52,865 nucleotides of DNA from Saccoglossus kowalevskii (taxonomy: Eukaryota > Hemichordata > Enteropneusta > Harrimaniidae): the NCBI RefSeq assembly GCF_000003605.2, contig NW_003151253.1, positions 615,207-668,071 on the forward strand, in the 5' to 3' direction. Below are positions 20,594 through 52,865 of the stretch, piece after piece. A program made the position numbers and the translations under genes. The notes below the pieces were generated by a model. The model saw only the letters and a program-made list of their open reading frames with translations. It did not search any database and was not told where the DNA came from. Every line of letters starts with the position of its first letter. Positions within the stretch are counted from its first letter, which is position 1.

Positions 20594-23500
20594 GTGGCAC
20601 ACAAAAACCTTTGTGGTCAACAGAAACCATACCTAACATGTGAAATGCGTACAATATTCCACATCAACTATATATACTCAGGACAGATCAGACATAACCT
20701 GATAGGGACAGGTGAACATGATAGGACAGGATCAGACATAACATGACAGACAAATTGTTGAATTGGTATCATAGTTCAACATTCACAGATTCAGTAATAC
20801 CAGACAATTGACTAATGTAGCCTAATGAAGTTTAAAATTTACTAATTTAAATAACCTGGAGGGTATATTTCCCATTATATAAAAAAAAAACACTCATTTA
20901 CTTTTACATTACATTTTAATACTGTTATAACAGAATTTCATTTGTTTTGAAACTTCAAACCCAATCTCATGTTCTGTCTGAAATAATTTACCTTTAACGC
21001 TGTATTAATTTACGAATATTGTATTTCAAAAAAATGCAATCAAACCAGTTCTCGCTATTAATATTATTCTATTAGAAGAATAACATTGTTCTGGCCCTGG
21101 GTCTTTTTAAAATACCTCGAGGGCGTTTCCGTGATTTGACCTACTGGTGTTTATAACATAATCTAACCATATTGAAGGTTGACTATTAGAAACTCAAGCG
21201 GATAGATATTTTTTTGAAATCTATAGAGAAAATTTGTAAATCAGAGAAAAACAATTATTTGATCAAAATGCTCAAAACTCAGTGAAATACTATTTAGTGT
21301 TCCCTTTATCTCCTCCCCCAGATTCTCTAATGGTCCATCCCTCAGATCTATTTATAGCCTGGTACACAACCAGCAACAAAATCTTCAGCCGAATTTCAGC
21401 TAAAACCTGTTTTTGTAAAGGTATGACAATCTGAATGAATGTTTTTTATTTACCAAAACCATATACTTAAACATATATTTGTAATTTATGATATATATTT
21501 ACAGAATAATTAAAAACAGGGATTTTGATCAGAGGCACAGAAATAGTTTGTGTTCAATTTCACCAGATGGTCATGATACTAATAGAGCGAATATGCTTTC
21601 CATTTTTGTATATCGGCTTTCGAGAAAACAGTAGGTCTGAAAGTTTGGATGGCACATTCCTATTTTTGGTAACCCCCCCCCCCTCTGGTGAGCATCAAAA
21701 TCACTGCCATATCAGAAACACATCTTTAATAGATGAATTGGCAAACCTAAAATGCTATACATCTCTTTGAAGTAAATGTATTTTTTCACAGAAAAAAATT
21801 CAAAGAGAAAATATCCTGCGTATTTGCAGAAGAAGGGAAAAAATGTGAAGAGAATTTACCAAAAATGATCAATGATTTTTTGAGGTGTTTTGAATGTCAG
21901 CTATATTTAAGTGTGATGTTATTATTTCAATGTAACATGATTTTATTCTCACAGAACAATTTGGTTTAAAGAAAAATCTGGTTACGCAAAGGTTACTGCA
22001 GGGTGCAGAGTATATATCCATCAAATTATTCTTATTTAAATTATTTTGCTAAATTGACAATATCACATTGTAGCATTGCTCAATCAAAGTATTGTAAACC
22101 ACTTTAATTTCGTCAAGAGCCAAAAACGTGAAATTTTGTCTACATGATAGTGACTTGCGTGAAAATTAAAATCCTGCAATTGCAACAATTTCTAGCAGCG
22201 AAAATTAAACAGTTTACAATAAACTGGCACAGTACGCAATGCCTAACACACATTCTATGAAACAATTCATATAAAACAAAACAAGGAAAACATATTTTAC
22301 AAACAATGTAGCAAATAAGAGTAATCACCTGACATGCGTAAAGCCATCACCATGGTAACAGAAGAATGAAAGTCAAAATTACAAAGCAAGCAGAATGAAG
22401 TTTGACTACATACAAACATCATAGACAGCAACTACTCATTATCTATGCAGGTGAGAGAACAAAGGAGAAAAAAAAAACATTAGAACAACAGCTTGTTATT
22501 TGTTAGTTTGACATTTCCGTTGATTGATGATTTACTGGCGACTCCATGTCAAAATGTTTCATAATTTTTCCCGCCTTGCAAAATTGGCATAAAATTGAAG
22601 CGGTTTACAGTATAAAGTACATAACTGTGAACTCTGGGCCAAGACAAATTTTTCAGAATTTCGTAAATCTATGAAATTTGTCAAATTATTGAGCAGTGGA
22701 AATTTCTCTGAGCTTCTAAAGCCATGAAAACCTCACTTTCTTAAAATGTTGTCCTCACAATAGGAATTAAATTTATATCATGAACATTTCAAGAAATGAA
22801 TGTTAAGCAGTTTACAGTATTTTGCCGAATGTACAACAATTATAATGAAGTAGTTGTCAATTTGTAGCGAATTAGCATATTACAACCACTACATTTTTGA
22901 CATTTTCTCTGCTTGTATTGTTTGTAAGATTTTTATTAAAATATGTCAGTCAGAAAATAAGTGTTTGGACAAAAAATAAGCATCAAATCCAGGCTGTTGA
23001 AAATTGCGTTATTGGTCGATCAAAAATCAATGATACACCGTTAACTGTAAATTGTATTTTTTGTATACTGGATCATTAAAATATTACTTATACACCTCTT
23101 GTTTTTTTTACACAAGTGCATGCACTACTGAGAGAGCAAATACCATATTTGTTTTATTAGAAACACATATTATATTAACCATAGATACACCTCTGCTATT
23201 TATGTAAATGCATGTGCTACTCATAGAGCAAATATGGTATTGCATAGAAAAATACATAAATAGTACAAAATTGGCAGTTGATATAGTAATTTAACATTAC
23301 AATACAAATAATTTCCATTATTCATTATTAATAACACATCAATGAATATTAATAAATAACACCAAACGACTATATCTACTCATCGTTATGAAAACAAAAT
23401 CAGGAAATGTATAATGAAGATTGGAAATTATCATAAAGCGTTATATTGAATGTGTCTGTAAATAACAAAAGATAACATCTCTGTTAGATCTTGTGATAAA

Positions 23501-25500: not shown

Positions 25501-26229
25501 GATAATCGGTAATCTAAACGGTGAATATACTAGTCAAGTTTCGTCCAACAGTCGTAAATATTGTGCGTATAAAACCCCCTTTCACTTGTTTACAGTTAAG
25601 TTATTGGTTATTACGTGTAGCATTTCGTTTCGTTTCTTCAATTACAATAAGCCACGATAAAGTCATAGTACCATTACTGGATTGGTTCTTACAGACTCAG
25701 TATTTTTACAGTGATAACAAATTATTTTACGTTTTTCCAACATTTATATATCGTTTTTCGTTGGTTGAAGTCCTAAGAAGACGCTTTTATTGGTAAAAAC
25801 CATTTGGTAACGTTTATTTATTTATACGTTTCGTTGCAACCCTTTTTAATCAGCAGCTCATAGGTTACAAATCAAATGCGGCATTAGATAATAAATTAAA
25901 CATAAAATCTTTGAGTGAAGGAAAAATGCAAAAGAAGAAATTGGATCAAATTATAGATAACGGAATTAAGAAAAAGTCCATTAAACATGCTTGGAGGTTA
26001 AGCCTGGAGCAACAGACAGGAATTACACCAGCGCCCTCATCGATGTATGCACGAGTATCAAGTTCATTTCTTTCCGGCGTTGCATTTATCTTTATTACAA
26101 AATTGTGCAATAGCCGTGGAAGTCAAAAGGGGAATTATGTGTGTACATGTGTAATTATTAGAATTTAATTACTCGAATGAAAGAGGTCATTTTTGAATTA
26201 TCTCTTAGTCTTCAGAGTTTATGCTAAAA
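25501..26229. other. Intergenic, unassigned short open frames
   Basis: Open frames at 25521-25796 and 25911-26168 (the latter with a basic KMQKKKLDQIIDNGIKKKS run) have no recognised homologue. They may be remnants of the same element as the frame just upstream. No promoter or splice context supports a gene. Confidence 0.25.
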
Positions 26230-26632
26230 CACAGAAGGGGTCGTCACCTGACAAGTGTTTGTAAACAACGACACGCTATGGCCGTCAACCGCCGTAGGTG
26301 ACGACTTCCCCGCTTTAAAGGGCGTTGGTCGTCGCGCCACGCATGCGCGAGATATGGAACTCGTTTGAACAAAGATGGTGACTTTGACTGTTGTGCAGAT
26401 CAACGAATACAAACTGAGACCTTACTAAGATTCAACTACTCAGTATGTTATTTCCATGGTAATTGGAAGGTATTGAAGGAGTCACCAGCGGTATTAATTA
26501 GTGCGTGTTGTACCCAGGTCAAATCTCGTATTCGTGATTTCCATTAGAAGAGCACATTGGAATTTGGGAAAACCAATGTTTATCAACACAAATGTCGCAC
26601 ATGCGCAGCGCGATGACCACCGCCCTTTAATA
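26230..26632. promoter_or_regulatory. CpG-rich promoter-like block between zeb and TBC1D5
   Basis: Between the two minus-strand genes is a short GC- and CpG-rich block with an NRF1-like ACGCATGCGCG near 26340-26350, a second GCATGCGC-type core near 26600, and a YY1-like AAGATGGTGAC around an ATG at 26375. That ATG opens only 17 codons (MVTLTVVQINEYKLRPY) before a stop. It may be an alternative TBC1D5 promoter or the start of a short non-coding RNA. No homologue was recognised. Confidence 0.3.
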
Positions 26633-27408
26633 CAGCAAGTCTCAGAAATATTGGGGCAGCCAATTTGCAAACTCGCTAGCTCGCTTTGGTTTTGACTAAA
26701 CGGTTGACTTTCGAATCTCGCTGGCGCCGTCTTGTGGCCACGCCCACTTTGGGTGAATCTATGTAACAATCGGGACCCTGGTAGGGATGGTCGTCATACT
26801 TTATGAATGAATGAACTTAATTGTTCCCGTGTAAAAAAAGAGTAGGTTACATAGGGTGTTTGCAACAATAAAGAATTTTAGAAGCTAGTCAGCGACGGCC
26901 TTACAGTTGGATGGCGATTTCGTGTTCAAATATACCAGGAAAGTGTTCTGTGTTCTTCGTATAATGAAGTGATGTCGAATTTTATTAGCGATTGGCTTAA
27001 TGTTACCCCAACGAATTGTTTTGTAGGAATCTGTTTCTCAACGTAGTTTCAATCAGTGTTCAATATGTCTACCCCCATATATATAGTAAATATCGGTGGA
27101 TTAATCGCTTATCATATTATTACTTGTACGTCAGCTGACTGGCTATTCTCAGACTTACCAGGAAATCTATTTATACATTATTACGCCTCGCAAAGCAAAT
27201 CATTCAGGGGAATCCAAACATGTACCTGGCTACGTACGTAAAAGCAGTCCATGTCCCCTAATGCAATATAGGCTCGCCCAGAGTGGACGAGACCACGAGT
27301 CGGCGCCAGCGAGATTCGAAAGTCAACTGTTTAGTCAAAACCCAAGCAGTTAACCAATTTGCTAGCGAGTTTGCAAGTTGGCTGCTCCAATACTTCTGAG
27401 ACTTGCTG
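26633..27408. mobile_element. TA-flanked element with about 125-bp terminal inverted repeats
   Basis: The left arm begins CAGCAAGTCTCAGAA (26633) and the right arm ends TTCTGAGACTTGCTG (27408); both are flanked by TA. The arms share GCAAACTCGCTAGC, GACTTTCGAATCTCGCTGGC and GGCGCC in inverted order. A TA duplication and CAG ends suit a Tc1/mariner-type non-autonomous element. The 0.5-kb middle has no transposase. Confidence 0.5.
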
Positions 27409-31023: not shown

Positions 31024-31262
31024 TTAGTCTCGGTAGACCTCGGTTGATGCTTCTTTTTTCAGCTGTCTTAGCGTATCCTCTCGTTTACAGTAACTGTACC
31101 TGTGGTTCATATGCTGACTGTAGGATCCTGAGTGTGAAAACTTCTTTAAGCATTTATCGCATTGATAAGGTTTCTCTCCGCTGTGCAGACGTGAATGTTC
31201 CATTAGATGATGTTTGTGCTTGAATGCTTTGCCACACTCCTTGCACTGATGGGGACGTTTCC
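31024..31262 (-). CDS. zeb: ZEB exon 5, last two fingers and stop
   Basis: The acceptor is TTTTTTTCAG. It encodes [33 protein letters not shown] and [18 protein letters not shown], then [20 protein letters not shown] and TAA (31026-31024). The finger residues are nearly identical to vertebrate ZEB. After KRE the human proteins continue for 100-200 acidic residues; here only 17 remain. Confidence 0.95.
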
Positions 31263-34200
31263 CTGAAAAAAACAAGTCGGAACATATCATGAGTATGCAT
31301 GTTTGCTGCCCTCTATAGTCAGAATGGTGCATTTATTTGCTGTGGTGGCTTTATTGGTCATCTTGCAGATTTTATTGCAAGTTAAGGGCACTTTTGTCAG
31401 TTATCTTGTATATTTCATGGCGAGTTAAGGGTACATCATTTTTAAACATATGTTTATTTTTTCCACAGAGAATTGTTTTTGAAAAGGGGGGAGAAAAACT
31501 ATTTTTCAAAGTTTAAGTTATCAATGTCAAAATTGTCATATTGAAAAGTAAACATGTATGAAATGGAACACTTCTTGCATTTATTTATGTCTGTCATAGT
31601 AACAAGTACCTGATTCACCCTGTGAACAACTTTTTTGCCACATTTTAAAACCTAGATTTTCGAAATAATTGAAACAAAAATTTATTTTTTTTACCAAAAA
31701 GCGATCTATGATTTTTAAAGTTTGTTGCGAAGGGATTTTGAGAGGACAATAGAGTATACACCAACCTGAGTGTTCATAGACATGTCTTAAAAGCGAGCTA
31801 TGTTTCTGAAAAGTCTTGGGGCACTGACTGCAAGCATACATTCCATTAATTGTGCGTGATGATCGGTCTTTGCGCCGTCTTGTTCGACATTCACCAATAG
31901 ATTCATCCAAACTACCTTCACTCAATGAGTCATCTGAAAAAAAAAATAATTTGTTATTCAACACGTCAAACTATCACTGATTTGTTATGTTCATGCAAAC
32001 CATATTTTTAGTGGTTTTCATTTTTCTGCCCTTTTACAATGTAAATCTTACTACTGTAAAATACTTTATTTTAGCTGGAATAAATTTTCTCTGAAAAGAC
32101 TTGGTTGTTTTGTATGGAATTTATTTTTACTGATTTTTGACAAGTTGAATGTAAAATATAGGAAAAGGTATATTCACTGGAGTTTAATTTCACTGAATCA
32201 TCCCCTCCAGCGAAAATTAATTCCAAGCGAAAATAAAGTATTTTACAGTATGCGGTACTGTGATGTGACAGAATCACCAAATGTAATACACAAGTAAGAC
32301 CAACCAATCTTGTGGTTATGTTTTTATTCATACACAATATTGCAAAGGGTAGAATGTGGGGAGAGAATACGCACAGCTGTAACAAATTTCAACAAACCCA
32401 AGTTTGAGTGGTTGAAAAAAAAGTATTCTCAACTGAATGCAAGAAATGCAGCAATTACTGTTACCATGTATGCTTTACTAGAAGCGCATTTATTTGGTTA
32501 CCAGCATTGTATCATGACTTACCTCGATGGACAGCACCAGGATGATACGAAGACATGGGATTCGATCCGAGGGAATTTCGTATCTCGTCTTCCGTCATGA
32601 AATGTCTCCCAGCAGGCATGATATCTGGAGGGCTTCCCGTGCTCATTAAGCCCAGGCTGTCCATCAACTTCAACTTCTTTGTGGGGCCCTGCGTGGGTGC
32701 CGCAGCAGCCAGTAGACTGTTATGCAATCCTGGGTGGTGATGTGCTGCATATAAATGCGGCAGTTCGATAGCATGTGTCAGGATTCTGGCGGCAGACGGG
32801 TTATGGGCTTGTCCATTGCAATGAGCTTTGATGTTATTTTCAAAGTATGGTTGAGCCAAACGAGGATCAACTTTAAATGAACTAAAGTAGAAGTCAGGAG
32901 TAGTATTTGGTGTGGAATGATAACCCTTCATGTGGAACACGGACCGAGCTGCGTCAAATTGCTGTTGGTGATACTGCGATGTTTGAGGAAATCGTCTCGC
33001 TTTACTTGATACTTTTAATTTTTTGGGCATTGAGAGATCAAGCGGCTGCTCATTGTTTTTTGTTCGTTCTTGCGACGGAGGTGAAGGTTCAGACACAATT
33101 TTTTTTTTTGTTAAAGCTATTGGTTCATCATGAGGAACATTTTTTTTGGATAAATTCAACCCGTTTTCGCAGGTGTCCAACGGCGGCATGCTCACCATCA
33201 AAAGCCCCCCATAATTGCGATTGTCATCAGTTCTAAGTCTATTTGCATACGGTGGTGTTGTCGTAATTTGTAATGGCCTAGCACAATCGGGTTCATCATT
33301 TCCCCTTTTCATCTGATCACTTCTGGAAGACTCAATATTGCTATGGTTACTGTCACTTTCATCACTGGAATCAACATGATGACTGTTAACCAATGGGGTG
33401 TGATTTTCATCAGCATCATCCTCATCATCATGAGCATCTCTTTCATGTTCAAGTTGTGCTTTCTTGTTTTCAAACCAAGTTTGTATGGCATGAACGGGAA
33501 GACCTAATCTTTGCGAGATCTTATCTATGTCATCAGAAGATGGATTTGAAGACATTGCGTAATAAGCACTCAAAGCATGTTGTTGATTTTCTCCTATTAA
33601 AACCTTATCAGACTCTTCCTCCTCACATTCCATCAGCTTTTCATTTATCTCAATATTTCTGGAATGCTCTTTGTTTTTCTCCTGCTCCTGCTCCTCCTCG
33701 CCCTTTTCCTCCTCCACCTCTTCCTCTTCAAACTCATCTGATGATGAGGCTTTATCATGTGACATTGTAATATCATCAATTTCAGCTTTATCTTGCTGAT
33801 CATGTGACTGCTTCCTTGACTGGAGGTCATCGTCATTTTGCATGCTAACCACTTCCCTTTGAAAGTTGATATATTTTGTCAAGGAGACATGATTTTTTAC
33901 TTTCTGCACGTCCTCATTCTCATCACACAAGTAACGTTCATGCTGGTGCAACTCAATTGGGTTGAAAAACATTTCTTGGCAGTATCTACAGGCATTTTTA
34001 TCTCTTTTAAAATGGATATTTGTAAACGCTTCAACAGCTTTCGCTTCATTTACTTTTCTTAGCGTGTAATCAACTATGTCATAACTTTTCCCCTTTTTAT
34101 CAACTCGTTTATTTTGATTAACTTGTGGACTCTTAGCAGGAGTTTCTTCTCGTGGAATTTCAGGAATGACAATTTTCTCGGCAGTTTTGACTTCATTCAC

Positions 34201-37200
34201 TGGATCCTTGCTTTCTCTCTCCATTGGAGGCTGCTTTGCTTTCTTTAGTTTCGCCACATTCTTATTTTGTCCCTCCATCTGTTGCCTGGAGACTGTTGCC
34301 CCAACGATTTGAAGAACTTTCTTCACAGCATCATTAGGAGGTGATGTTATGGTGATTGATTTATCTTGAGACTGATCATCGGATGTATTGACGTTGATGG
34401 ACAAAGCATCGTCATCATCATTGGACGGCTTATCAGATTGATCATAGAAGCTACCGGGGATATAATTATGTATATTGTGTGGGCCAGTGACTGGACTCAT
34501 ATCCTCGGAGATGAGTTTAACTGGAGCGGCTTTTGTCGAGAGCAACAATGACGGCATGTATTTGGAAGGTGTACACTTTTTACTACTTATATGAGAACTA
34601 TAGGAACCTGAATGTGAGAATCGTTTTTTACACGTAGTGCATTCATAAGGTTTCTCCCCGCTGTGTATCCTCAAATGTTCTTTTAAATGGTGTTTATACT
34701 TAAAGGCTTTGTGACATTCTCCACACTTAAACTTTCGATTGCCCGTGGAGTGCGTTAACATGTGGCGCTGTAGCCGATAAATATTCACAAATGCTTTGTT
34801 ACAGATCTCGCAGATTTGATCTCTTCCGGGCATGTGCGTAGCCATGTGACGTTCCAATTGCGACTTGTACGCAAAACTGTAATTGCACTCTGAGCAGGCA
34901 TAATTGTTTGCGTTTTTTTCGTGGCGGTATTTGATGTGCTCTTTCAAAGACGTGGCTCTCTTGTAGACACGGTCGCAGTATGGACAACTAAGAATGGTAT
35001 CATCATTGCTTTCACCATTTTGTCCTGTAATATATAAAAAAAGGATAGAAAACATAAGATTTTTACTTTAAAAAAAAAAACTTTTGTTTTTATGGTGCAA
35101 TTCTTTTGTTTTTATAGACAGTGTTGATAGAGGGCACTGTTTTGATTTTTTTTTAAATTTCAAAAAAAAAAGTCATCAAACAAAAATAATTGCGAGAACA
35201 CAAGACAAATTTTTGAAGTTATTAAACGAAATATCATATCAAAAATTCATTAACGCTTTTAACAAGAATCGAAACATGTATGAAACTAAAACCAATTTTC
35301 CATTGGTTATAATTCAATACCTATTGCAGACATTATAAAGTATCTCGTATATTAATAGCTACATAAACAACGATGTCATTTTCTATTATTTATTGCTGGC
35401 ATTTTGACAAAAAAATAATCCCAGAATTGTATAAGATTTCAGGATCTGTGTAGGTAATGCTATCCGCTGGCATCCTGGCATGAGATTTCAATCGTCTCTG
35501 AGGCCTCACGTCTCACTGCTATGAAGCCACACCTTGGTACTAACTAAAATAAACAGGTGATGTACATCAAAATAGTGACTGAATCACGGATTACAACATC
35601 TGATAGATGTCAAAGGCCATTCACACTGGACCAAACCATACAAACCGAGGGGTGGTTCAATTAAAACCAAAAATGAAGTCAGTTCAAATTTTCACAAGCT
35701 TAATTACAAGTACAGAGAAGCAAGATACAAACAATATGATGTGTACCTTGCTCTAGAAGGGAGATAGGTTTGTTTTCTGTTTTTTTTAGACCAAATTGGG
35801 TCAGAAAGTGTTCTTTGTTTAAAACATTTGTAGCTGATTTATGGAGACAAGAGCGGTGGAGAGACAGGTACCAGTGTAATATAAACAATATGGAGTCAGA
35901 ATGGTGAGAGCATCTTGTCAACATTTATCCTCCAAGTCATGGGGTCTGGTTTCAATATAAACATACAAGTCTATGAAGCTTTTTTATCACCTTAACTAGG
36001 CTATACCTCTAAACACATTGAAAAAATTAGTCTGTCCTGGTTGTTAACATTGAAATGTGTCATAAAAAGAAAGAGAGAGAAAAGCTGTTCCTGTCTCTGC
36101 AATACCTCCCTCATAAGGCTGACAGTGGGGAAAATATCTAAATCTAAATTATTTAAACATTGATTCAACCTTGTTTTGTCAAGACATGCAGTTTAAAAAG
36201 AAAGGTCATTTGATTGTTCGGATGTTTGTTTCATTATTGAAATATTCAACACAAATTGGCATGGCGCCGAGAATTTTCAACAAACACAAAAAAAAACATC
36301 ACATGGAATTATTGTTTCAGTGGGGCTGGGTTGGATCTTTGAACCTCAGGTAGAGAGGGAAAAAATAATCAAAAAATAAAAAGAGGGCACCATCCGAGAA
36401 AGGCATTAAAAGTTACAAAAATGCTACCATAAAATTTGTCGAAATTTCTCACATCAGGTAATTAAAAACGTCAAATATTATGAAAGTTTCGAATTACGAC
36501 AAGAATTTCGCTTCAGGATGCCTCGAGACATGGACACAATAATTGAAGTCTGTATGGGCATTCTCTTTGGTCCTCAGCACAATTTAACCTGAGTGTTGTT
36601 TTTCACCTATCACCGGAGGTGGCATTTGGCTCGAATTACTTTTTCAAACTCTGCCGACTTTCTTCCTGTGTGAACAAGCATACAGTAGACAGCTGTGATT
36701 CATATATCATCAGTACCAACCTGACGGGTCGCTATTCTCATCATCCGGCGCCTCGGGATAAATTATTGCTGTATCGCCTCGACTGAGGTACTCTTGTAGA
36801 TTCAAGCCTGCTCTTCCTCCTCCTCCTCCTCCACCAGGTGCTGCACATTCATCTTCCCCAAGTTCTTTATTGCTTTGATAACCATCATCACCATGGTAAC
36901 TACCATCATTGCTGCTCATCTCATCCTGATTCAGTTCGTTTTCATTGCTATGGTAACCGTCACTATTGTTGTTTTCTTTGTTGCACTTTTCTTCAGCTTC
37001 GTTCTCTTCAAGAAGTTCTGAAGAATAAAAAAAATAAAATCATGAAAAATTAATTGAACATTACTGCATAGCGAAGGAGTTAGGCGGATTGATAAACTCA
37101 CTCAAAAGATAAAAAAAAAAATACTTTATATTGTGGATTAGGTAAATTTCTTCCTTTTCATACAAACAAATGCAAAACTGCAAGTGTCAAGAACAGTTTC

Positions 37201-40200: not shown

Positions 40201-43200
40201 TGAATCAACGGGTGGGAAAAATTTAATTTCATGTAGACTTTTTCAGACATATTTGAAAAGTTACTCAAGCCGCATTTCTCTAGATCCACAATTTTTTGTC
40301 TGAATCCACCAACATTATCGTCGTGATCTGAAACGCGTTTCAGAATTTTGCGCACAGAATACGAAAATAAAGCAACTACTGAAAAAGAATTCACTTGCAA
40401 ATTTGCGTTGCCATATATACGTGTACCGACTTGTCAAAATATTTATTCCAACAACAGTTGGAGCTGAATTTCAATAAATAAGTATACAGTTTGGAGAGAA
40501 AAAAATATTTAAAAAAGATTTGTTGATGCGAGTCAAGTGAGACAAGCATATATTTAATGTACGGGCAGGTGCAACTGAAGACATTATTAATAAGGAACAT
40601 GCGATAGCCATACAAATACAGACTCCATGGCTATGTTCCATGCATTTTGAAATTCAAGGTAAAAAGCTTGGAGTCTGCGATTCACCCTAAGGAGTCATTC
40701 AGTCCAGACTAAAAGACGACATGAACTAAGTTTAAGTCAGCGCTATTTTTATATTACCTGAACACCTGAATTACTACTGTTCAGTCATTAATTCAACACA
40801 AATTTTGACATTTTTGTTTTTGAGTTGAAATTATTAAAAAAAAAAATTTTTTTAAATTATTCTGTCTGAAATTAACAAAAATATTACAAGAATTCTATCT
40901 CAAAGAATGAGTAACGTTGAAACTGTTTTTTTAAGAAGATTTGTCAATCCAAATGCCAATTCTATATAAAAAGCTCTGAATCGTGTGATTAATTTGAAAA
41001 TGGATTATAATTAAAGATGTTAATTCAAGACGTGTATTTTGCAGCCTTCACTGGAAGACATAACCCACATGGATGACTCAAGGTTACCTTCCAGGAAGGG
41101 GGCCAAGGGGAAAAAAGAAAATGTTTTCTCTTTTTTAAAAAAAAATTTACCTTGGGAGTAAACTTTCATATAAATGCTGTTCAAACCTCACTTTCAAATG
41201 TTTCAACTTTAAAACATTTAGAAAGTTTATAGTTTACAAATTACACTTTTCATAGGCATTCACTTATATTTACAGCAACCTGATGTAGGTATTAAGGACA
41301 GAGACAATCTGAAGTCAAGACTTGATACAACGTCTCAAATTACGCACTTATTTAGCAGTCTATATGTAATATACCACGTGGAGCGTGGTACGCAAACCCA
41401 TTATGACCAGTCATAGGTATGGATGACTCAAGACTTCATGACGAAAGATAAACCGGATGATCTAACGTACCAGGATGTTTGTCTTGATTGTTTTACCTTT
41501 AGACGTAATTTACTCAAACCGAACGTCATCAAGGGAAAAAAGCTCACTTGTCACTGATTAAAGTTTCGCAAATCTTGGAAAACTTTATTATCACATCAAT
41601 CCAGGATATTTGCTTGATGAGGAAAGAACAAAAGTTTATTCCACACATTTAATAAAACTGTTCCGCTTAAAATTGGAGACGTATAATAGGTACATTATAG
41701 ATGTAATTTCATTGAGTTTGTCAGAATTTAGTCAAATATTCCCCGAAATTTTGCTCAGAACAACTATTTTATCTAGAGTGGAAATACGTTGTCAATATAT
41801 TATAGCTACATCTTGAATTAACAAACCATACAAAGTAGATAAAATAGCTAGACCTTGAATTAACAAACATAAATTAGCTAAAATATCATGCTAAAAAGCA
41901 TATTATCACTGTAAAATACCTTATTTTTTGTACATGTATGAAGTTTATTTTCACTGATTTTTGATGTGTTGGATGTAAAATATAAGAAAAAAAAAGTATT
42001 TTTGTTGGATTTTATCTCCACAGATGTAATATTTCACCGAAAATAGCTAAAATAAATTTCAAGTGAAAATAAAGTAATTTACAATAGTGTGATACAATCC
42101 ATTAATACAATTCACTAATCAAAATACCAAAACAAACTACTTAATCCAGAGGAAGGATTAAAAGTTGGACAATTCAGAACTAGCTGCAATGTATTTTATT
42201 TTTATACAGAGAATAATATAATAAGCCTTTAGTTGGATTGGTATTGAAACTTTGTGTTATTGAGATGTGCTCAAATTCCAATGGCGATGGCAGATAAACA
42301 CACAATTTGTTCATAACATATCTATCATAATATTTGATGCTGTCTTAGAAGAGATCTACAGCACCAATTGTTTGACGATGCATGACTTTTCCAGATTAGC
42401 CATCCTCATTTTGGACATTTTTCCCTTCCATTCTAACTAAATGATTATCTTTTTCTACTTTTGAATCCCAAAATTACAATCATTTGTTATCGAAGATTTT
42501 TTTCCCTAGATCTGACCCCTGTGAAAAATGTATATACACCTATAGAGATATAAAATGAATTTGTCATTTATAACAAACATGTTTATTTGCAAATCAGAAA
42601 TTAACAAAATACACAAGCCAAGAACAAAAGCATTGCACAGATTCAAAAACATTCTTTTCTATTGGTTTGAGACCAGCTGATGCCAGCAGAATTTGGAACA
42701 TTGTACAGACAGTGTTATTATAAAAAAAAATGAAATGAAAAGGTGTTTTTTTTAATATATAATTCAATGCCCCTCCTCTATTTGCTGTATCTGGTCATTC
42801 CTTATACAATTGCAATGATAAGCCCGACAAAAAACAAGCAGCCTGTCGGCTGAGATAGCTCCGCTGTTAGCAATGCACATGGCAATTAAAGAACAGAAGA
42901 TATCATTAGAAAATGAACAAATCTGAGAGAGGTCCACATGTAGTACCTATATATGTAATATCAAAGCAATTGGACTTGCGGTTTTTAACAAGAAGTTGAA
43001 AATATCACTTTTTACCAAAAATGACAAAAATATTCACCAAAATTAGAGAATTAAATATATCATCACAAAATGAACAAATCTGAGAGAGGTCCACATGTAG
43101 TACCTATATATGTAATATCTAAGTAATTGGACTTGCGGTTTTCAACAAGAAGTCAAAAATATCACTTTTTACCAAAAATGACAAAAATATTCACCAAAAT

Positions 43201-46077
43201 TAGAGAATTAAAGATATCATTACAAAATGAACAAATCTGAGAGAGGTCTACCCAAGGTACATATACACCAAGTATCAAAGCATTCAGGCTTGTAGTTTTC
43301 AAGAAGAAGTCGAAAAAGTAAAACATTGACACGGACAACGACGGACAATCACTCATATGATAAGCTCCGCTCGACAAAGTCGACAGCGGAGCTAAAAGTG
43401 GCTGCTGTTACAAGATCTGTAAAAGTTTTCTTCAAGAATGTTATTAATTGCTATATACAAAATTATTTCACTTTTCTGTGACGCAATATTGAAGATTAAA
43501 TACTGCAGGAATCTAAAAAAAAATAATTCTTTTATATTATACACTTCATATTTAAGTTTTATTTGATTTTGATTCAAGAACCAAACCTATTGTTTCTAAA
43601 GACAGATGTACTAAAGAGCTCAGCGGATTTGATTACACCAAGAGTGTCTAAACGCCAGGTCGGTTTGCAGTGAAACAAGATGAGATGAGACCTCAGGCTG
43701 CAGTATTCCAAACATGTAGTCTGCTGATAGCATCTCAAAAATGCGGCCGGAATGCCAGCACATCAGCTGTTGCAAAGGTAAAAGGTATTAAGCGAAGACT
43801 CTCGGCAGGAGACTTGCAAAATAACAGAACTGCTAATAAAAATATCACCATGGGGCAAGTTTTCTGACTCAGTACTTTCTTGCTGAGGTGGAAAAAATTG
43901 TTCTTCCTGACTTCACTGCGGAGGTTCTAAAGTGGACACACAGCCCAAGTGAATCAAACTTAATACTACTACTGAGTCTATAGACGCAGAGCTTATTTAT
44001 CCAATAAGCCAATTACAATATAAACACTTTAAACAAAAGGAGATGCTGGTATTTAAACTGTCTGAATTACTTGGTGGTATTGCTAGATAAGGCACTACAA
44101 ATGCGCTAAATTTCTTAAATACATGATTATAACTGCAAAGGTTTGAAATCACAATCTACTCTCAGGGCCCCTGCAATCTAAACAAGCTGGTCAAGGCAGT
44201 CAGGTAGTCTACCGATTTATTTTTACTGTTGTGTGATCGGTGTCTTGTTACACTGCTTAAACCTAACAAACATATCAAAAACACATCAAAACTTGGCAAC
44301 TTCATTTTTTAAACAAAATTGTATTTTATAAAAGGAATAGACAAGAAGAAAGAAAAAGTGGGGCAAATCCATCAGGTAAAGGGGAGGGTAGGCACTTTTC
44401 TAATAAGGATGTTTCAATATTCAAAAGTCCAGTAAGAAATTTTAAGTGAAGTCCACATAACAGATAACAAAAATAAGGTATTTGAATTAAGAAATTTGAG
44501 AGGCTGAAATTCCTAATTATGTTATGCACATGTAGCACCTGCTGGGTTCTAAACAATACTTCTGACATCTGGCTAAATGGAACTTACATCAATTACCACC
44601 ACCCCCCAGCAGCCAAGGTTTGAAACAGTGTCCTGTAACTGTATATCTTACTCGGAAAATGCGTGAATGTGGGAAAAGGATGTAAACTGTGATGCGAGTG
44701 AGGTGTTTGAAGCTGTTACATTGGGGTGATGTGAAAGTGACTAAAAGTTGTGATTAACCGGAGTTTCCTTAAAGGGTGCCTTTTCATTGAATTAAGTGCC
44801 GTGAAAGCACCGCTACTGAATGCTGTGTCTATTGAAGAATAGACCACGTCGTTTGCATATACCTTCCTTTGTGAACAGAAGAGCAAAAAAAAAAAAAAAG
44901 AGAGAAAAGTAAAATAAACGATTATGCCTTTATATTTTTTCACTTTCGGTCATATTAGCACCTTCACATTTGCGTACATAAACTTTGCTGCGTCAGCGAG
45001 TGATGATATGCTGGGGCGCACTTCGAGTAATTCGTTACTTGCTTCGAGTCGTAGGGGGAAAGGTGTTGTTGGAAGGTGCCATCTGTCCCGAATCAATAGG
45101 TTGGGTTTACAAAGGACAACAGCAGTAATCACTGAAAATCCAGATAAAAAGAAAACAAACAACCGCCACGGGAAGTCCAGTTGAAATCGCGACTAAATGA
45201 CCACTTCGAGCGAGCCAGGTATCGGCTAATAAAAATAAAAAATACCGGGAAACGAGGCCATTGTTGCTTGATGGGACGATTTTAATGATGATTTAAAATT
45301 GGTCAGCTTGCCTGTAGGTTTGTTGCATAAACACAGAGGTGCATTGTCCGAACTCTCACCTAAATTTAAACGATAGAACCGAAAACATCTCCTACAACAT
45401 CGGGCAGTGAGCTTAAGTAAAACGCGATCGTATATTCCACGTGAAAAAAAATGAACGTGTTTGAAAATGATGGAGGAAATTACCGGAGCTAGAAATAAAA
45501 TTCAAACAGCCTGTGTGATTATACGGCCACGTTTTCTCTTTGTTAACACCTGCAATAGATTAATTATACATTCGGCTTTCCCCTGTCATTGTTCAGCGGG
45601 CTATGTCATTGTGCTAAAGATGCAAGCCATCGCCACTTCTGATCGGGAAAGCTGAAACGTTCGAAAACAGACTCCCCTTCAGATCAAAAGGTAACACTCG
45701 GTAAATTAAAGAACCAAAATGTTTCTCCTGTTTCACAAGTGTCGTTCCATCCTTTTTTCCTCATCGACGCATCCAACAAACAGCATAGAAAGACACAATG
45801 ATGATCGAACATGCACTGTACATAAACGTACGTACGCATTGCCGCTCAGGTACGATACACATGAAAGTGTACGCAGCGGTGAACAATGTGTATACAACGC
45901 GCACCTCAGAAACGAACCTCAAAACTACGCGCAAAACTATTTCTCCGCGATAAAAGTTGACACTTACTTTTAACTAAAGATGGACTGTGAATCGGTATGA
46001 TTATAAAACTATTCGTTACCTTTTTTTCGTCTCGGGTTCGCTTGTTTTCTGCGTGTACACCTGGGTCCCTCCGCCAT
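31024..46077 (-). CDS. zeb: ZEB orthologue (zinc-finger E-box-binding homeobox repressor), complete, 5 coding exons
   Basis: The joined exons are 46077-46020, 37017-36721, 35024-32523, 31933-31766 and 31262-31024, all in frame, about 1087 residues (human ZEB1 about 1124, ZEB2 about 1214). Domains in order: NuRD-recruiting N-terminus (1-19); acidic and Gly-rich region with [10 protein letters not shown] (about 90-118); fingers at 132-153, 162-182, 190-210, 219-239 and a C2HC finger 247-269; VKKVLQIV and [13 protein letters not shown] blocks; C2HC finger 464-485; Glu-rich block 548-588; homeodomain-like 599-646 (WFENKK); CtBP motif PLDLS 779-783; three C-terminal fingers about 987-1064. ZEB proteins bind paired CACCT(G) boxes through both clusters and repress epithelial genes such as E-cadherin through CtBP and NuRD. 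The C-terminal tail is short, only 17 residues after YCKRE, lacking the long acidic tail of vertebrate ZEB. Confidence 0.96.
31766..31933 (-). CDS. zeb: ZEB exon 4, first C-terminal finger
   Basis: The acceptor is TTTTTTTTCAG and the donor CACTCAG|GTTGGTG. It encodes [11 protein letters not shown], then a basic run [20 protein letters not shown] and finger [21 protein letters not shown]. Human ZEB reads [27 protein letters not shown] at the same exon border. Confidence 0.95.
32053..32249. mobile_element. Palindromic MITE, reference copy (ACTGTAAAATAC family)
   Basis: It begins ACTGTAAAATACTTTATTTT and ends AAAATAAAGTATTTTACAGT, an inverted pair of 20 bp or more; the next inner blocks (AGCTGGAATAAATTTT, AAATTAATTCCA) are also complementary. 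197 bp with no coding capacity. It sits in ZEB intron 3 between exons 3 and 4. Confidence 0.8.
32523..35024 (-). CDS. zeb: ZEB exon 3, giant exon with N-terminal finger cluster, homeodomain-like and CtBP motif
   Basis: The acceptor is ATTACAG and the donor CATCGAG|GTAAGT; 2502 bases. It encodes residues 119-952. ZEB signatures seen: [114 protein letters not shown]. An extra C2H2 finger (Cys190, Cys193, His206, His210) stands where vertebrate ZEB has only a linker. Vertebrates spread this region over several exons, so the fusion is notable. ORFs on the opposite strand here are shadows. Confidence 0.96.
35025..36720. other. ZEB intron 2, nothing recognised
   Basis: AT-rich sequence. The ORFs seen here have no recognised homology or splice support. 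Confidence 0.5.
36721..37017 (-). CDS. zeb: ZEB exon 2, acidic and glycine-rich region
   Basis: The acceptor is TTCTTCAG and the donor CCGTCAG|GTTGGT, phase 1 to 1. It encodes 98 codons from [13 protein letters not shown] to [19 protein letters not shown] and DDENSDPS. Human ZEB1 has VEEFLQQQDTAVIFPEAPEE at this place. Odd points: a run of seven glycines coded by a GGA repeat, and two similar acidic segments ([21 protein letters not shown]). It joins exon 1 directly in frame, though a further small exon of 3n bases between them cannot be ruled out. Confidence 0.9.
37660..37840. mobile_element. Palindromic MITE, ACTGTAAAATAC family
   Basis: Starts ACTGTAAAATACTTTACTTT and ends AAATAAAGTATTCAACAGT; inner TTCACTGATTTTTGGCGAGT matches other copies. 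Located in ZEB intron 1. Confidence 0.8.
41908..42086. mobile_element. Palindromic MITE, ACTGTAAAATAC family
   Basis: Starts ACTGTAAAATACCTTATTTT and ends GAAAATAAAGTAATTTACAAT; inner CACTGATTTTTGATGTGTTG matches the family. Located in ZEB intron 1. Confidence 0.75.
42832..43397 (+). mobile_element. HINE/pearl-like non-autonomous element, family 1, copy B
   Basis: It has the same ends as copy A (TAGCTCCGCTGT at 42856-42867, ACAGCGGAGCTA at 43383-43394), but fewer 157-bp units (markers at about 42918, 43075, 43232) and a shorter ACGACGG run. It sits in ZEB intron 1. Confidence 0.75.
46020..46077 (-). CDS. zeb: ZEB exon 1, NuRD-recruiting N-terminus
   Basis: It encodes [19 protein letters not shown] and ends in phase 1 at AAAG|GTAACG. 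Human ZEB1 begins [19 protein letters not shown] with the same intron position and phase. The RRKQxxPR motif recruits NuRD in this family. The exon is far too short for an ORF search and was found by reading the minus strand at the CpG-rich promoter. The ATG lies in a GGAACATGGCGG context. Confidence 0.93.
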
Positions 46078-46641
46078 GTTCCGTTTCAATGAGTTGATTG
46101 AGAGAAACTTAACGCATGCGCAGCTTACCTTGTTGACGTCATTGATGGGAGTTCCTCGTCATTTCGTACTTGCCAGTCCCACTTTATATTTTGATAGGTG
46201 GATAATGTTAACACCATCTGGAATACGTTTACATTACGCGGAATTAACAGAGGTGCTTAAATTCTGAAAAATACAGTGTCTTAGTTCTTTATTTTTAAAC
46301 CTTCGCAATATGTACGCAAATATATGTCGTGTTTATATCATGCGGTATTTTATGCAAATCCACGCCAGGTGTGCGTAGTCGCTTTGTCTGTATTACTGCG
46401 ATTCGCGACAAATTTTACATTCACGGATCACCACAGCAACGAGAGGGGCTTGGAAAGCTATCCTCGTAAATTTGAGTAATATTGTATATCCCCGTGACCG
46501 AATTTAACAGCAGGTTATGCCCATTCGACGGCTTGTACGGACTTATTTATGGGTACTCACACCTGGACTTGTGCGGAAGGATAGCACTCCGAACGGTTCA
46601 TTGGATGCCAAGCTTCTGCATATTGGAGTCGATTGTTGACC
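46078..46641. promoter_or_regulatory. Bidirectional promoter between zeb and the RRKQ zinc-finger gene
   Basis: This 564-bp interval has more CpG than its surroundings. It holds an NRF1-like CGCATGCGCA (46113-46122), a full CRE TGACGTCA (46134-46141), and two E2 boxes of the type ZEB binds: CAGGTG at 46366-46371 and CACCTG at 46560-46565. A third CACCTG (46058-46063) lies inside ZEB exon 1. The two 5' UTRs must also lie here. Paired E2 boxes would allow ZEB feedback on its own promoter and on its neighbour. Motifs are seen; use is inferred. Confidence 0.6.
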
Positions 46642-46681
46642 ATGTCTCGTCGAAAACAGGCCGCACCTAGGTCTATTAAAC
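46642..46681 (+). CDS. First coding exon of a divergent NuRD-recruiting zinc-finger gene (ZNF423/ZNF521-like; FOG or SALL family possible)
   Basis: It reads MSRRKQAAPRSIK plus one base, then a consensus donor C|GTAAGTT. The start codon has a strong context (ACCATGT). The peptide is nearly that of ZNF423 and ZNF521, which start MSRRKQAKPRS; FOG proteins start MSRRKQSxPRQIKR and SALL proteins MSRRKQAKPQ. In these families the first 12 residues are a separate short exon that recruits NuRD through the RRK. The next exon is not found in the remaining 6 kb, as expected from the long first introns of these genes. It is divergent from zeb with 564 bp between start codons. Family level is secure if it is an exon; the exact orthologue is uncertain. 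Confidence 0.8.
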
Positions 46682-47248
46682 GTAAGTTGACTTTTTCTGC
46701 GCGATCGTAACAAAATGTGCTTCAGCGGTACACGTGAAATCGTATTTCAAAGCGATGGAGATCGGCGAATCGAGCTTACAAATCACGAAACAAATGCCTG
46801 CCTGGCTTCTTCGTCACAGATTGTTACTGATTGGCTGCCATTTTGAATACATAATGAGTTGTCCCAGGTTTCCCCACTGCACTGTTAGTACGTGTACACA
46901 GAGTTCATATGTGAAATTTACATACTCACAGCCAAGTAACAAGTACAGCATAATTTATTTCCGTAAACATATTTGTTGTGATTTGAGAAAAATTGAGAAA
47001 TCCAATATCAATATAGAAATAGTGAATTCATTTTCATCATTTTACCTAGTGTTATTAAAGTGTTTTAATTTTCCAAACCTTACAAACCTTAATTTTTTTT
47101 TAAGGAGGGAATTGAGGTAATAAGTTTTTATCTTTCTTCCTATTTCACAAATTTCATATCAATCATACCTATAATTAGTACTAACAATTTAGATGAAAAG
47201 TGTTAAAAATCTACATAATAATTATGTAAAAATGTTGGTGTGTGAAAT

Positions 47249-47457
47249 ACTGTAAAATACTTTATTTACGCTTGGAATTTATTTTTGCTATTTTCGCTGA
47301 AGAGATGATTCAGTGAGAATAAAATCCAGCAAATATACCCTTTTTCCTATATTTCACATTCAACTCATCAAAAATCAGTGAAAATAAATACCATACAAAA
47401 CACCCAAAAAGCCTTTCAGCGAAAATTAATTCCAGCTAAAATAAAGTATTTTACAGT
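47249..47457. mobile_element. Palindromic MITE, ACTGTAAAATAC family
   Basis: Starts ACTGTAAAATACTTTATTTA and ends AAAATAAAGTATTTTACAGT with long inner complementarity; 209 bp, the orientation of the asymmetrical centre is reversed relative to the 32053 copy. Confidence 0.8.
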
Positions 47458-47819
47458 AGTTTAAATTATATAGTAGCTATGTGTACTAGCTCTATCCCTT
47501 TCATATCTATCACATTAAAATAAAAAAATCAGAAATTTTATATTTTTTCTGAAATTTTTTTAAAATTTTTTATTATATATTATAATTATGTTTAATTAAA
47601 CTCACATTTAATTAATTTTCTGATTAGGTGACATCTTGAAGTGAAAACTGATTTGGATGTTTATAAAGTTACTTGTAATGTATCAGTAATCGATAGGTGG
47701 CAGTTATATTGTCAGGGGTGAATTATTTGAAAAATGGGTGGGGGTGGGGTTACTTGGAACATCAAAGTCAGGATATATTTGTTGACTCCTGTGTGTCTGT
47801 ATATGTGTGTGTTTGTCTG

Positions 47820-49040
47820 TGTCTGTCTGTTCCACTGATATCTCAAGAATCAAATGTTGGTTTTTGATGAAACTTAATACATAGATGCTCCTGGCTAGTT
47901 TTTGGTTGAAATCCGTGCATATTAATTACCTAAGGGACAACATCAAAAGTTCAATGTAGGATAAAAAACTTAATTCCTTTAGTTTTTTCCCAAACCCCCT
48001 TATCCCCCACTGAAACTTAATTGATAAATATTGACCATGGCGTCAGACTACATTCACCATTAAATACAAATTGATAATCCGACAGTAGTATGGCATAGCA
48101 GTTGGTTGTCGGGGAGGGGGGGGGGTGTATAAAAAGACTTTACACTCGGACCAAACCATTTTCTCATCTTGAATGTGTTTTTTTCATTTTCTGTTATTTC
48201 TGTCCATGATTGGATAGAAAAAAAAAGAATTACAAATACTTCAAAAAAATGTTGACTTCATTAAAAAATAAAATCGTTTTTGTAGGATGGAAACTTTTTG
48301 AGGTCAAACCCCCCCCCCCCACCCCTAAACTAAAGCAAATAAGTTTTTTATCCGACATCGATCTTTTGACGTTGTCCCTAATTTGCATGATAATTCACCA
48401 ATTTTGTAGCTGTTTCATGACTGTTCCACTGATATCTAAAGAACCGCTTAATGGATTTTGATGAAACTTGGTACAATGTACATTGATGCTCTGGGAGATT
48501 GTGCAGACCAGATTAGTTTTGGGTAAAATTCCATACATATTAATTATCTAATTTGCATAATGATTAGTCACTTTCAAGTATGTTTTAAGTACTAATCATT
48601 ACATTTCAGTGAAACTTGGTAGGTAGATGCTCTGGGACTATGCACAGACCTGATTAGTTTTGGATTAAAATTTTTTCATATTATCTAATTTGTATTATTA
48701 GCCAATTTTCGGATTTTACTCAGATATCTCAAGTTCTAAGCACATTTCAATGAAACTTAGTACATAGATGGTCTGTGATATTGTGCAGACCATATTAGTT
48801 TTACATTAAAAACTGTGCATATTAATTACCTGATTTGCATAATAATTTGTCAGTTGTTAGCTTTTCAATCAATATCAATATGAAACTTGGTACATATGTG
48901 CCATGGAACAATACACAGACCTAATTAGTTTTGGGTTGAAATCCATGCATAATAATTGCTTAATTTGCATAATAATTACCCAATTTTCTACCTATATCTC
49001 AAAAACTAATTATTGCATTTCAATAAGACTTGGTATATGA
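47820..49040. repeat. Diverged tandem array, units about 130-148 bp
   Basis: GAAACTTGGTACATAGATG-like phrases recur near 47866, 48463, 48611, 48752, 48882 and 49026. Each is followed by CAGACCWGATTAGTTTTGGG and TTAATTAYCTAATTTGCATA-like blocks. Units are well diverged, so the array is old. It lies in the first intron of the plus-strand gene. Confidence 0.75.
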
Positions 49041-49213
49041 AGTGGGTGTTTTGTATGGAATTTATTTTCACAAGTTGTTTTTGTTTTGACAAGTTGAATG
49101 TAAAATATAGGAAAAAAAGGTATTTTCGCTGGATTTTATTTTCGCTGAATCCATCCCTTCAGCGAAAATAGTGAAAATTAATAATTCCAAACGAAAATAA
49201 TTCATTTTACAGT
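49035..49213. mobile_element. Palindromic MITE, left-truncated copy
   Basis: It contains GTTTTGTATGGAATTTATTT, TTTTGACAAGTTGAATGTAA and ends AATTCATTTTACAGT. The left terminal repeat is missing. Confidence 0.65.
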
Positions 49214-51666
49214 AACTTGCAGATAATGCAGCTAGGTTGATACAGCAGCCAACAAAAATGATTGAGTATGGGATATAATGGTTAGAATGATCACAGTTTC
49301 AAAATGAGTGACTAACGTTTCCATACATAAAAAAAGTAGTGTAACATTGAGGAAACTATGGTTACTGTATTTCCTGTTTTAGTAGTGCATGCACTTACGT
49401 AAATGATAGACTTATCTGTGGACCAAATAAGCTGTATTTTAATGATTGAATACCTGCAATTTTTGGGTTATACAAGGTATATACAAGGTTATGCATTTGT
49501 ATTGGAACAAATGAAGTACAGATCTGGTTACTGAGATAGCGCAATGGTTAGTTATCTAGGAACTGTCACCAGGCAACAAAATATTCTAAAAAATCACTAC
49601 AGGTCTATAGTTTACCTCCTGCATACATGGCGTGTACAAGCTTAATATTCCTGGCCATTATTATGCAAATTAGCTGCACTTTTAGTCCTGTCAGTAAAGA
49701 AAATGCATCTAATTTGCATAATAATGTTTTTTTTTAAACTTAATTTGTTTTTCATATTGTAAACAGAGAATGCAACTTGTATTCTATAAGTTTGCGTGAA
49801 TATAACATCATCAATTAATCTGTAATCAAATTAAATACAAAAGTAAATGTTTTTCATTTTGTATGAGCTTCTTTATTCTTTGCGTGTGAGATCACAAGTG
49901 TGCCACCTTGCACTGTTCTATATGCTAGAGGTATTGTGGACTTTTGAAAAGGCACCAGTACGACCGCCATTACGTTGACAGTATTCATAATACCGAACAT
50001 GCAAAGAATATATAGGCTATGTGTGGATTTCTGGAGATATTTATTTTTGATAATATCCAACAAGTGATTAAGGGATTGAGTTATGTTTTTAAAATCGCTT
50101 CAAAATGGTATGGATTGGCAGAGTGATAATTAGATGTGGGTCTTGATTTTTTGGAGTGGAGTGGAATGATCATTCGTCTTAGAAAACAAGATATTCTGTT
50201 TTTCATAGTTACCATCTTGTACTCACCCTTGGTCCCATAGTTTCAGTTTGGAACGTTTGTTTACCATTTTGACTTTTGACATACTCCACCCCTGCCATGC
50301 ATCAATCTGTCTAATTATTCTAAGACTTCGGTATAGAAAGTTGGACCGATAGCTGAATTTAGGTTATTTACAACAGCTGGACCTTTCTGAACAACACACT
50401 TTAAGTTACGCAGTGCTCCAGTCGGTATCATGACCTCATCGACGAAATTTGCAAAAATAACTAATTTTTATCCATTAAATCGCAGTTTTAGAACCATTCC
50501 AAATAATTCAGCATGTGATAAATCTGGATTTTGGATTTACGTCACAGTGGTGTTCAGACCTTGCATGTTTGTAAACATAGCGACTGGTAGGTAAGGTAGG
50601 TCTCTGAGGTCTAAGGCTGTGAACAGATAAGATTTAGAGTCAAAACAATGATTTCAATATTTGTGCATAGATATCTGATGGGAAGCACGTCAGATGGAAC
50701 GCTCCTGAACGAAGCCATCGAATCAAGGGCATACTACTAGTGGGTTAACCAAACTATAATTGACTCATTTATGTTACACTTAGGTATTAAAGAGCTTGCA
50801 TTTGAGGAGTTATAATAAAGCAAAAGTTGATCATCGTGCATTAAATATGTGTCACAGGTTTGTTTTTTTTAGGTTTTTTGGCAGAATTTCAACAGAATTT
50901 CAATTTTCAGGAAAAAAAATGAAAGCTCATAACTACCTTTCAATTATACCACAGATAAAATTTGAAAAGCTTCGAAACTCTTCATTCAATGTTTTTTTGT
51001 GCATAACGAGTGAAAGGATGGAATTAAAAAAATACAAAAAATAGGTTATTTCCTCAACATGGTGTTACCACTATTTCTATTGCCATGCTTTTGTTAACAC
51101 CTGTAGTTAATCCGTACAATATTCTACATGCACATTTATACAAATGTATTATTTTTTCACCTTCACTGAATGACCTCGATCAGGATCAATTTTTGTATGG
51201 TGAACACACATGTCACTGCTGAATATATTACGTTTGCAAGAATTTATTTTTACTGTAATTTCAATTTTTATGTTTGGTAATAAGTTAAAAATCAAAATTT
51301 TGTTTAATTTTTGTTGTTGGTTGGTTTCACTGTTTCGCAAATGCCGATCTTTCAGAAGTGGGGGATATGATGTGAAGAATACCCTTACCTCATCAAAATT
51401 GACCATCATCAAATGTCTATAGTATATTATTATCTTTGGGAATACCCAAAAAAATACTTTCACTTTTTGTCGAATCTCATTCGACGTTTTGAGTTGACCA
51501 CGTCACTATGACCTTTGTTTGTCCTGTTTTCACTTTCAATTTCATGAATAATGCTGGAGCTTGCATTGAACCAAAATGATCTTTTAAAGCTTTGATGAAA
51601 CAAGAACAACTTGTATTGGTTTAAAGCTCAATGACAATTGAGATACATTGGGTAATAATCAAATTT

Positions 51667-52021
51667 TTATTTTTTATTTTTATTTACGCTATCGCCCCTC
51701 CTGGGACATAGGCCGTCAACCAGGTTCCTCCAGGCAGAGCGGTCCTGAGCCAGCGTCTCCAGTTCTTTCCATGTGCGGCCCATCTTCTTAACATCTGCCT
51801 CCATGTCTCTGCGCCATGAGTTACGAGGCCTTCCCCTCTTCCTTTTTCCTTGAGGATTCCAAGTCAATGCCTGTCTAGTAATATTAGGCATTGGTTTCCG
51901 TAGGGTGTGGCCAATCCACTGCCATCGTCTCTGCAAGAGCTCTGCCTCAATGGGTTGCTGATGAGCAATCTCCCACAAGTCTTGGTTACTAATTACCTCA
52001 GGCCAGAAAATTCTGAGTAAT
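51667..52021 (-). mobile_element. Non-LTR retrotransposon fragment, C-terminal end of ORF2
   Basis: The frame reads [17 protein letters not shown], then [33 protein letters not shown] and [19 protein letters not shown]. This is the well-known C-terminal end of the endonuclease/reverse transcriptase protein of many animal non-LTR retrotransposons (RRWxWIGHxLR, [14 protein letters not shown]). It is 5'-truncated, as is usual, and ends in a stop at 51667. Confidence 0.85.
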
Positions 52022-52865
52022 AATCAAAATGTATATGAAAATATTTTACGCCAGAAATCAGATGACCAATATAAATACTTAAGTCACAGTATGACAAGCA
52101 AAAATAATAATTGATAATAATAGAAATCAATATCATTAGTATCGTGGTTGTTATCCTAACTTCCAATCCCACCTTAATCATTTTGAATATGGAAAATCAT
52201 TTTGAATAATTTGACTTCAGAATGACTTGTACTAAAGTGGGAAGCCACTGGATATTATGTATTCTATTATGCTGCTTTGGGAGAACGTACAGGTGCTTTC
52301 GACCAGGTCAGGTTGGCACCAGGTTTGTGCATTAAATTGCAAGATGCCCACACAGCCCTGTCATATAGAGTCAATAAATATGTTCAATTTGTATGAATGC
52401 AATAATTTGATTGGTTCATCTTTAAATCAGTACCTATGCACTTAATTTAGTTAATATTTTATTATTAAATTTCTCTTCAATAACTTAACATTATATGATC
52501 CAGTTTATTGCTATAAAATAATTATTAATATAATACAACAATAATTACACCATCATTGGCAGGAAAGAAGCAATTAGCAAATGTTGTGCTTGTCAAGTCT
52601 GTTTTCCGAATATCAGAAAAGATTAAACACTATATGGTTATTAAGTAAGATTGATGCGATGCATTACTTCTAATGCATAGTGAACTCCTACAAATGATTC
52701 AATCCCAGTTGTTAGATATTTGGATGCAGCAGGTGGGCTGGTTTTAATAGATGTGTTATAACCATCTAGTATGGATGCTTAAAGTTTAGTGGGGATTCTC
52801 AAAAGAATAGATGGTAGATACTGTAAACTAATTTAATTTCATGCTAATTGCAATTGTAGCAGTGA

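Follow-up and report, generated by a model that had tools for sequence, protein, structure and literature searches.

A first exon with a NuRD-type motif lies head to head with zeb and may open a Crypton-derived DUF3504 gene

The N-terminal RRKQxxP sequences of FOG-1, SALL1, SALL4, BCL11A, ZNF296, and ZNF827 are described, in excerpts of PMC11602157, as motifs that interact with the nucleosome remodeling and deacetylase (NuRD) complex and contact RBBP4. According to excerpts of Kojima and Jurka 2011 (PMC3212892), DUF3504 is encoded by KCTD1 (isoform b), KIAA1958, WOC/ZMYM2-4, and QRICH1; the same excerpts state that the known DUF3504 genes lost the catalytic tyrosine and the second arginine, explain KCTD1 isoform b by a Crypton inserted upstream of the older gene KCTD1, and give no function reported for DUF3504 as of 2011. 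Here, we analyzed a stretch of 52,865 nucleotides (hereafter the window; contig C4122:615207-668071 of a 572-Mb genome assembled in 4,830 contigs), in which a short plus-strand exon encoding an RRKQxxP motif lies head to head with the first coding exon of zeb. The zeb genes are regulators of cell-state change, and in vertebrates their divergent partners, ZEB1-AS1 and ZEB2-AS1, are non-coding. From exon phases, splice signals, and domains, we consider it reasonably probable that the plus-strand exon opens the coding sequence of a Crypton-derived DUF3504 gene whose promoter is shared with zeb.

Two motif exons within one CpG-rich interval

A preliminary description of this DNA had claimed that two RRKQxxP first exons start head to head from a single promoter; the arrangement was confirmed, and the interval over both starts is promoter-like. 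The two ATGs are separated by 564 bp, both exons end in phase 1 at GT donors, and CpG-rich DNA spans both starts (Table 1). The predicted plus-strand protein opens with MSRRKQAAP, which places RRKQxxP at its N terminus. On the minus strand, the gene is zeb, as judged by its domain order together with its likeness to ZEB sequences. Compared to the ratios listed in Table 1 for the DNA over both starts, the mean CpG observed/expected ratio was 0.58 in 322 steps of 600 bp. The single top-ranked step lay elsewhere, at C4122:735807, and in readable DNA none of the top 25 CpG-rich steps fell between the two first exons and exon 2 of the DUF3504 gene. The window has further CpG-rich DNA at 25501-27300, between the 3' part of zeb and the left window end.

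ZEB proteins bind CACCTG-type E-boxes, three of which are present in the head-to-head region. With a tandem array of the window excluded from the count, 6 of 1,981 window steps of 662 bp held three CACCTG, and all 6 overlapped the head-to-head interval; with the array included, three CACCTG occurred in 3.5% of 1,028 steps. ZEB may thus feed back on both genes through these three E-boxes, a prediction that is open to experiment. Among the matches listed from the open-license literature, no paper on point was found for zeb and bidirectional promoters, and those on the motif, its exon, and ZNF423/521 were likewise unproductive. Separately, a tandem array at 19410-20596, built from about 26 copies of a 46-bp unit, contains 20 CACCTG/CAGGTG E-boxes.

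The degenerate pattern ATG-WSN-RRKQ-x-x-P was then counted in the readable part of the genome. It occurred at five places, compared to 0 forward matches and 1 reverse match in the reversed control; a narrower pattern kept three of the five, and the narrowest kept the window exon only (control, 1). By this count against the control, the RRKQxxP exon pair exceeds chance expectation. Besides the window exon, the places include MSRRKQAKPQHLGS on C3174, which we take to be SALL-like, and MSRRKQANPNRVS on C4510, which we take to be ZNF821-like. A phase-1 GTRA donor candidate is available to all five motif exons, and three of them (those of the window, C174, and C4510) measure exactly 40 nt, given donors hand-picked from two or three GTRA sites per read; the common phase and the common length suggest that one motif exon, through common descent or shuffling, stands behind the five MSRRKQxxP first exons.

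Two other origins of the plus-strand exon were rejected. The preliminary description had raised an exon duplication by inversion, which found no support: the plus-strand exon shares 19 of 33 bases with the zeb exon, and 18, 18, 20, and 22 of 33 with the four unlinked motif exons. Nor is the plus-strand exon exon 1 of FOG, since a FOG-like MSRRKQSNP exon sits on C174 instead, although the FOG PR-domain match near that exon is under its cut-off and a FOG2 finger segment used as the query found no match in the genome.

A candidate DUF3504 gene downstream of the plus-strand exon

The plus-strand gene had been described as a zinc-finger gene, with multi-C2H2 exons to be sought to the right. We took the downstream DNA from C4122:660000-859999, where 50,327 of the 198,112 bases that follow the exon are readable and the remainder is N. 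One regular expression applied to both strands of these readable bases found no well-formed C2H2 finger and two loose matches. The readable DNA, a quarter of the 198 kb that follows, therefore gives the zinc-finger assignment no support; moreover, the downstream gene that fits encodes DUF3504, and the fingers of ZNF423/521 are located on contig C610.

Sixteen plus-strand frames of at least 85 aa follow the exon, and two of the 12 that were run against Pfam gave a match; the other four were the frame that immediately follows the exon and three belonging to a tandem repeat. A 404-aa frame at C4122:683,345 matched QRICH1 (7.8e-9) and DUF3504 (2.7e-9; 37.7 bits versus a cut-off of 29.7), both above the Pfam cut-offs. 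The second was a leucine-rich-repeat exon at C4122:745,880, which we take to be FBXL7-like. Among the scanned frames, the DUF3504 frame, 21.5 kb on, is the sole recognizable plus-strand coding frame ahead of the FBXL7-like exon.

As shown in Table 1, the window exon can be joined to exon 2 and three further exons. In this five-exon model the frame is open to a stop and encodes 508 or 509 residues, and the exon 2 acceptor is a TAG-CAG tandem, both forms of which fit the phase-1 donor of the window exon. Upstream of this acceptor the frame closes after about 30 nt, while within exon 2 there are 40 codons ahead of the first ATG. As a description without a significance test, guanine-plus-cytosine (GC) content by codon position was 0.65/0.45/0.30 in those 40 codons, 0.52/0.40/0.42 in the whole of exon 2, and 0.35 at each position in the intron. 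Because the frame closes so soon and the 40 GC-biased codons precede the first ATG, exon 2 likely needs an upstream coding exon that ends in phase 1.

Genome-wide, we found 58 DUF3504 matches, half of which (29) carry stops; the 29 stop-free ones include the downstream gene. Many matches to DUF3504 and to the QRICH1 domain look like decaying Cryptons. Since QRICH1 matched 29 places, 16 of them with stops, it appears to be a general Crypton domain here, and orthology to QRICH1 on the strength of the Pfam match alone was rejected. With exon 2 as the query, 17 other places were found, 11 with stops; the best four, all with stops, had 34-38% identity over 223-276 residues. In alignments longer than 103 residues, no other copy exceeded 38% identity, although a few short matches reached 41-50%. 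The DUF3504 gene is thus single copy with an open frame.

One relic, on C4521, was read against the gene. It is identical to exon 2 at 97 of 283 residues, aligned up to LAGI, and continues past the exon 2 end, with stops, through TGHSG and ERTGHR, which we take to resemble the catalytic part of a recombinase. In the DUF3504 gene, a splice donor stands directly after LAGIQLDNQ, where the relic runs on into this catalytic-like part; therefore, as far as the readable exons tell, the catalytic H-R-Y part seems to have been lost. The downstream gene is not KCTD1b, because the KCTD1/15 orthologue is on C4812 (62% identity) and 0 of 8 matches are on C4122; KCTD1/15 and ZNF423/521 each have a single strong match in the genome, by which the animal is probably not a vertebrate. 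The Pfam scan of exon 2 revealed no MYM-type zinc fingers, no search aimed at them having been made, and sequence searches of the PDB returned 0 matches.

Table 1. Positions of the head-to-head exons, the candidate downstream gene, related motif exons, and promoter and zeb features (window coordinates unless a contig is given)
Feature	Position	Strand	Details
zeb coding exon 1	46020..46077	-	ATG at 46077; 58 nt; 19 aa + one base; phase 1; donor GTAACG
Interval separating both start codons, candidate bidirectional promoter	46078..46641	.	564 bp
Plus-strand first coding exon, MSRRKQAAPRSIK + one base	46642..46681	+	ATG at 46642; 40 nt; phase 1; donor GTAAGT; RRKQxxP NuRD-type motif
Start of predicted 21.5-kb intron 1	46682..52865	+	
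Predicted exon 2 (QRICH1 + DUF3504), outside window	C4122:683376-684538	+	1,163 nt (or 1,166)
Predicted further exons, outside window	C4122:685295-685412, 687307-687407, 687936-688040	+	118, 101, 105 nt
CpG-rich stretch over both starts	44701..46800	.	CpG observed/expected 1.09-1.48 in six 600-bp steps
E-box CACCTG	46058..46063	+	Inside zeb exon 1
E-box CACCTG (CAGGTG on +)	46366..46371	-	
E-box CACCTG	46560..46565	+	
Motif exon MSRRKQSNPKPLK	C174	-	18 kb upstream of weak FOG PR-domain match, same strand (E 0.108, under cut-off)
Motif exon MSRRKQDKPQQVKRAL	C1938		GTRA donor candidate in phase 1, further one in phase 0
Motif exon MSRRKQAKPQHLGS	C3174		
Motif exon MSRRKQANPNRVS	C4510		
Open frame containing zeb exon	36710..37039	-	No Pfam match
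Main zeb exon in 851-aa open frame	32512..35067	-	N-terminal C2H2 cluster, homeodomain (Pfam)
Open frame with two C-terminal zeb C2H2 fingers	31024..31332	-	

Alternative readings of the window exon and other features of the window

Several points weigh against the assignment of the window exon to the DUF3504 gene. Within the intron, 5,023 bases (C4122:668072-673094) read N and leave room for another exon, and the readable part holds other ATG-to-phase-1-donor candidates, two of at least 10 codons and three of at least 8. Exon 2 has an internal ATG, and a non-coding first exon elsewhere could start the gene; stop-free DUF3504 matches are, in addition, commonplace (29/58 in the genome). The stop TAA (688,038-688,040) lies inside a perfect GTAAGT donor at C4122:688037-688042; therefore, the DUF3504 gene may extend farther, its true C terminus possibly lying in unread DNA. 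Finally, we take the window exon to be most like the first exon of ZNF423/521 (MSRRKQAKPRSLK / MSRRKQAKPRSVK), and no ZNF423/521 first exon was found in the readable genome.

This likeness leads to an alternative that we regard as unlikely, namely, that the window exon represents the first exon of the ZNF423/521 orthologue, in which case C610 would lie within unread C4122 and the DUF3504 gene would be nested in an intron. PRSIK after the motif resembles exon 1 of vertebrate ZNF423/521, and the window exon carries the signature of that exon, PRS-hydrophobic-K after the motif with phase 1. Exon 2 of ZNF423/521 here also takes a phase-1 donor (phase read by eye) and, C1938 aside, the window exon is the only one of the five motif starts that sequence likeness or neighborhood does not assign to another zinc-finger family. 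However, exon 2 and the finger exon of ZNF423/521 are on C610 and not on C4122. The finger exon (C610:33470-33805, in a frame of 1,328 codons) has 68% identity to a human ZNF521 segment (expect value [E], 5e-50), and exon 2 at C610:29982, a weak match (E, 1.12) with its finger read by eye, adjoins it on the same strand. Moreover, C610:1-28738 reads N, which leaves room for the gene's own exon 1, and C4122 downstream of the window exon holds the DUF3504 gene and the FBXL7-like exon. It is possible that the window exon serves both the ZNF423/521 and the DUF3504 genes.

We think it slightly less likely still that the window exon opens another gene, zinc-finger or not, with its remaining exons in unread C4122, or a mostly non-coding divergent transcript with a short frame kept by chance, in the manner of ZEB1-AS1/ZEB2-AS1. 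Roughly three quarters of the following 198 kb read N, and the divergent partners of vertebrate zeb genes are non-coding; on the other hand, the window frame encodes a complete N-terminal motif of the NuRD type and ends at a consensus phase-1 donor, a phase open to all five such exons, and a fitting DUF3504 gene lies downstream. A chance open frame without function is highly improbable: although the single genome match of the reversed control allows about one chance match, the window exon sits in CpG-rich DNA at a distance of 564 bp from another motif exon, and its phase-1 donor is perfect.

Turning to the rest of the window, the frame that contains a zeb exon at 36710..37039 includes a 16-residue stretch that we take to resemble vertebrate ZEB2. 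At 6021-6484, a 38-bp unit is repeated in tandem about 12 times amid strong GC and AT skew, and a 157-bp tandem unit is present at two places 24 kb apart (18478-19156 and 42897-43248), the units being alike by eye. A 118-aa open frame on the minus strand (51667-52023) had no Pfam match and presumably resembles the end of a long interspersed nuclear element (LINE) reverse-transcriptase protein. Rfam and transfer RNA scans of the window gave no matches.

Proposed mechanism and comparison with known systems

If the window exon indeed opens the DUF3504 gene, a CpG-rich bidirectional promoter would drive both zeb and the predicted NuRD-motif/DUF3504 gene. The plus-strand exon would be spliced across an intron of about 21.5 kb, which includes 5 kb of unread DNA, to the 1,163-nt QRICH1 + DUF3504 exon and then to three small exons. 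In the resulting protein, the first 13 residues may dock on RBBP4 of NuRD, while the inactivated tyrosine-recombinase domain may hold DNA or a partner. Such a repressor would be transcribed and co-expressed with zeb and could be repressed by ZEB via the three E-boxes. A more specific history, which we offer as tentative and consider doubtful as a whole, is that a Crypton inserted into intron 1 of a ZNF423/521-like gene with a NuRD motif, head to head with zeb, and captured the first exon of that gene by splicing. The outcome would be a NuRD-recruiting, transposon-derived DNA-binding protein that is transcribed with zeb and restrained by ZEB at the shared promoter, an invertebrate parallel to the KRAB-transposase proteins.

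Confirmed by transcripts, the gene would represent a new kind of partnership, between a NuRD docking tag and a gene derived from a transposon recombinase. NuRD recruitment could then pass to a new DNA-binding fold via a 40-nt first exon, DUF3504 would gain a directly testable function, and zeb would have a coding rather than a non-coding divergent partner. No paper on a NuRD-motif/DUF3504 fusion was present among the matches listed from the open-license literature, which is a weak negative.

Like the N-terminal RRKQxxP NuRD proteins, the window exon encodes MSRRKQxxP at the N terminus in a short first exon of its own. Unlike the proteins named in PMC11602157, which are zinc-finger proteins, the fitting gene encodes DUF3504 and has no finger in its readable exons. 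As in the known DUF3504 genes, its domain appears to be a Crypton-derived tyrosine recombinase whose catalytic residues were apparently lost, and the excerpts of PMC3212892 make no mention, for those genes, of a NuRD-type motif ahead of DUF3504. In contrast to KCTD1b and WOC/ZMYM, no BTB or MYM domain was seen in the downstream gene, and KCTD1/15 is on C4812. With ZNF423/521, the window exon shares the first-exon signature MSRRKQAxPRS-hydrophobic-K; the difference is that the finger exon and exon 2 of ZNF423/521 are on C610. Host-transposase fusions were reportedly described by Cosby et al. in 2021, as cited in PMC10799329. KRAB-transposase fusions are a known case. The gene proposed here would resemble such fusions in that a repressor-recruiting host module is spliced to a transposon-derived domain, and would differ from the KRAB-transposase fusions in having a NuRD motif in place of KRAB, a Crypton recombinase in place of a DDE transposase, and, probably, a non-vertebrate animal as its host.

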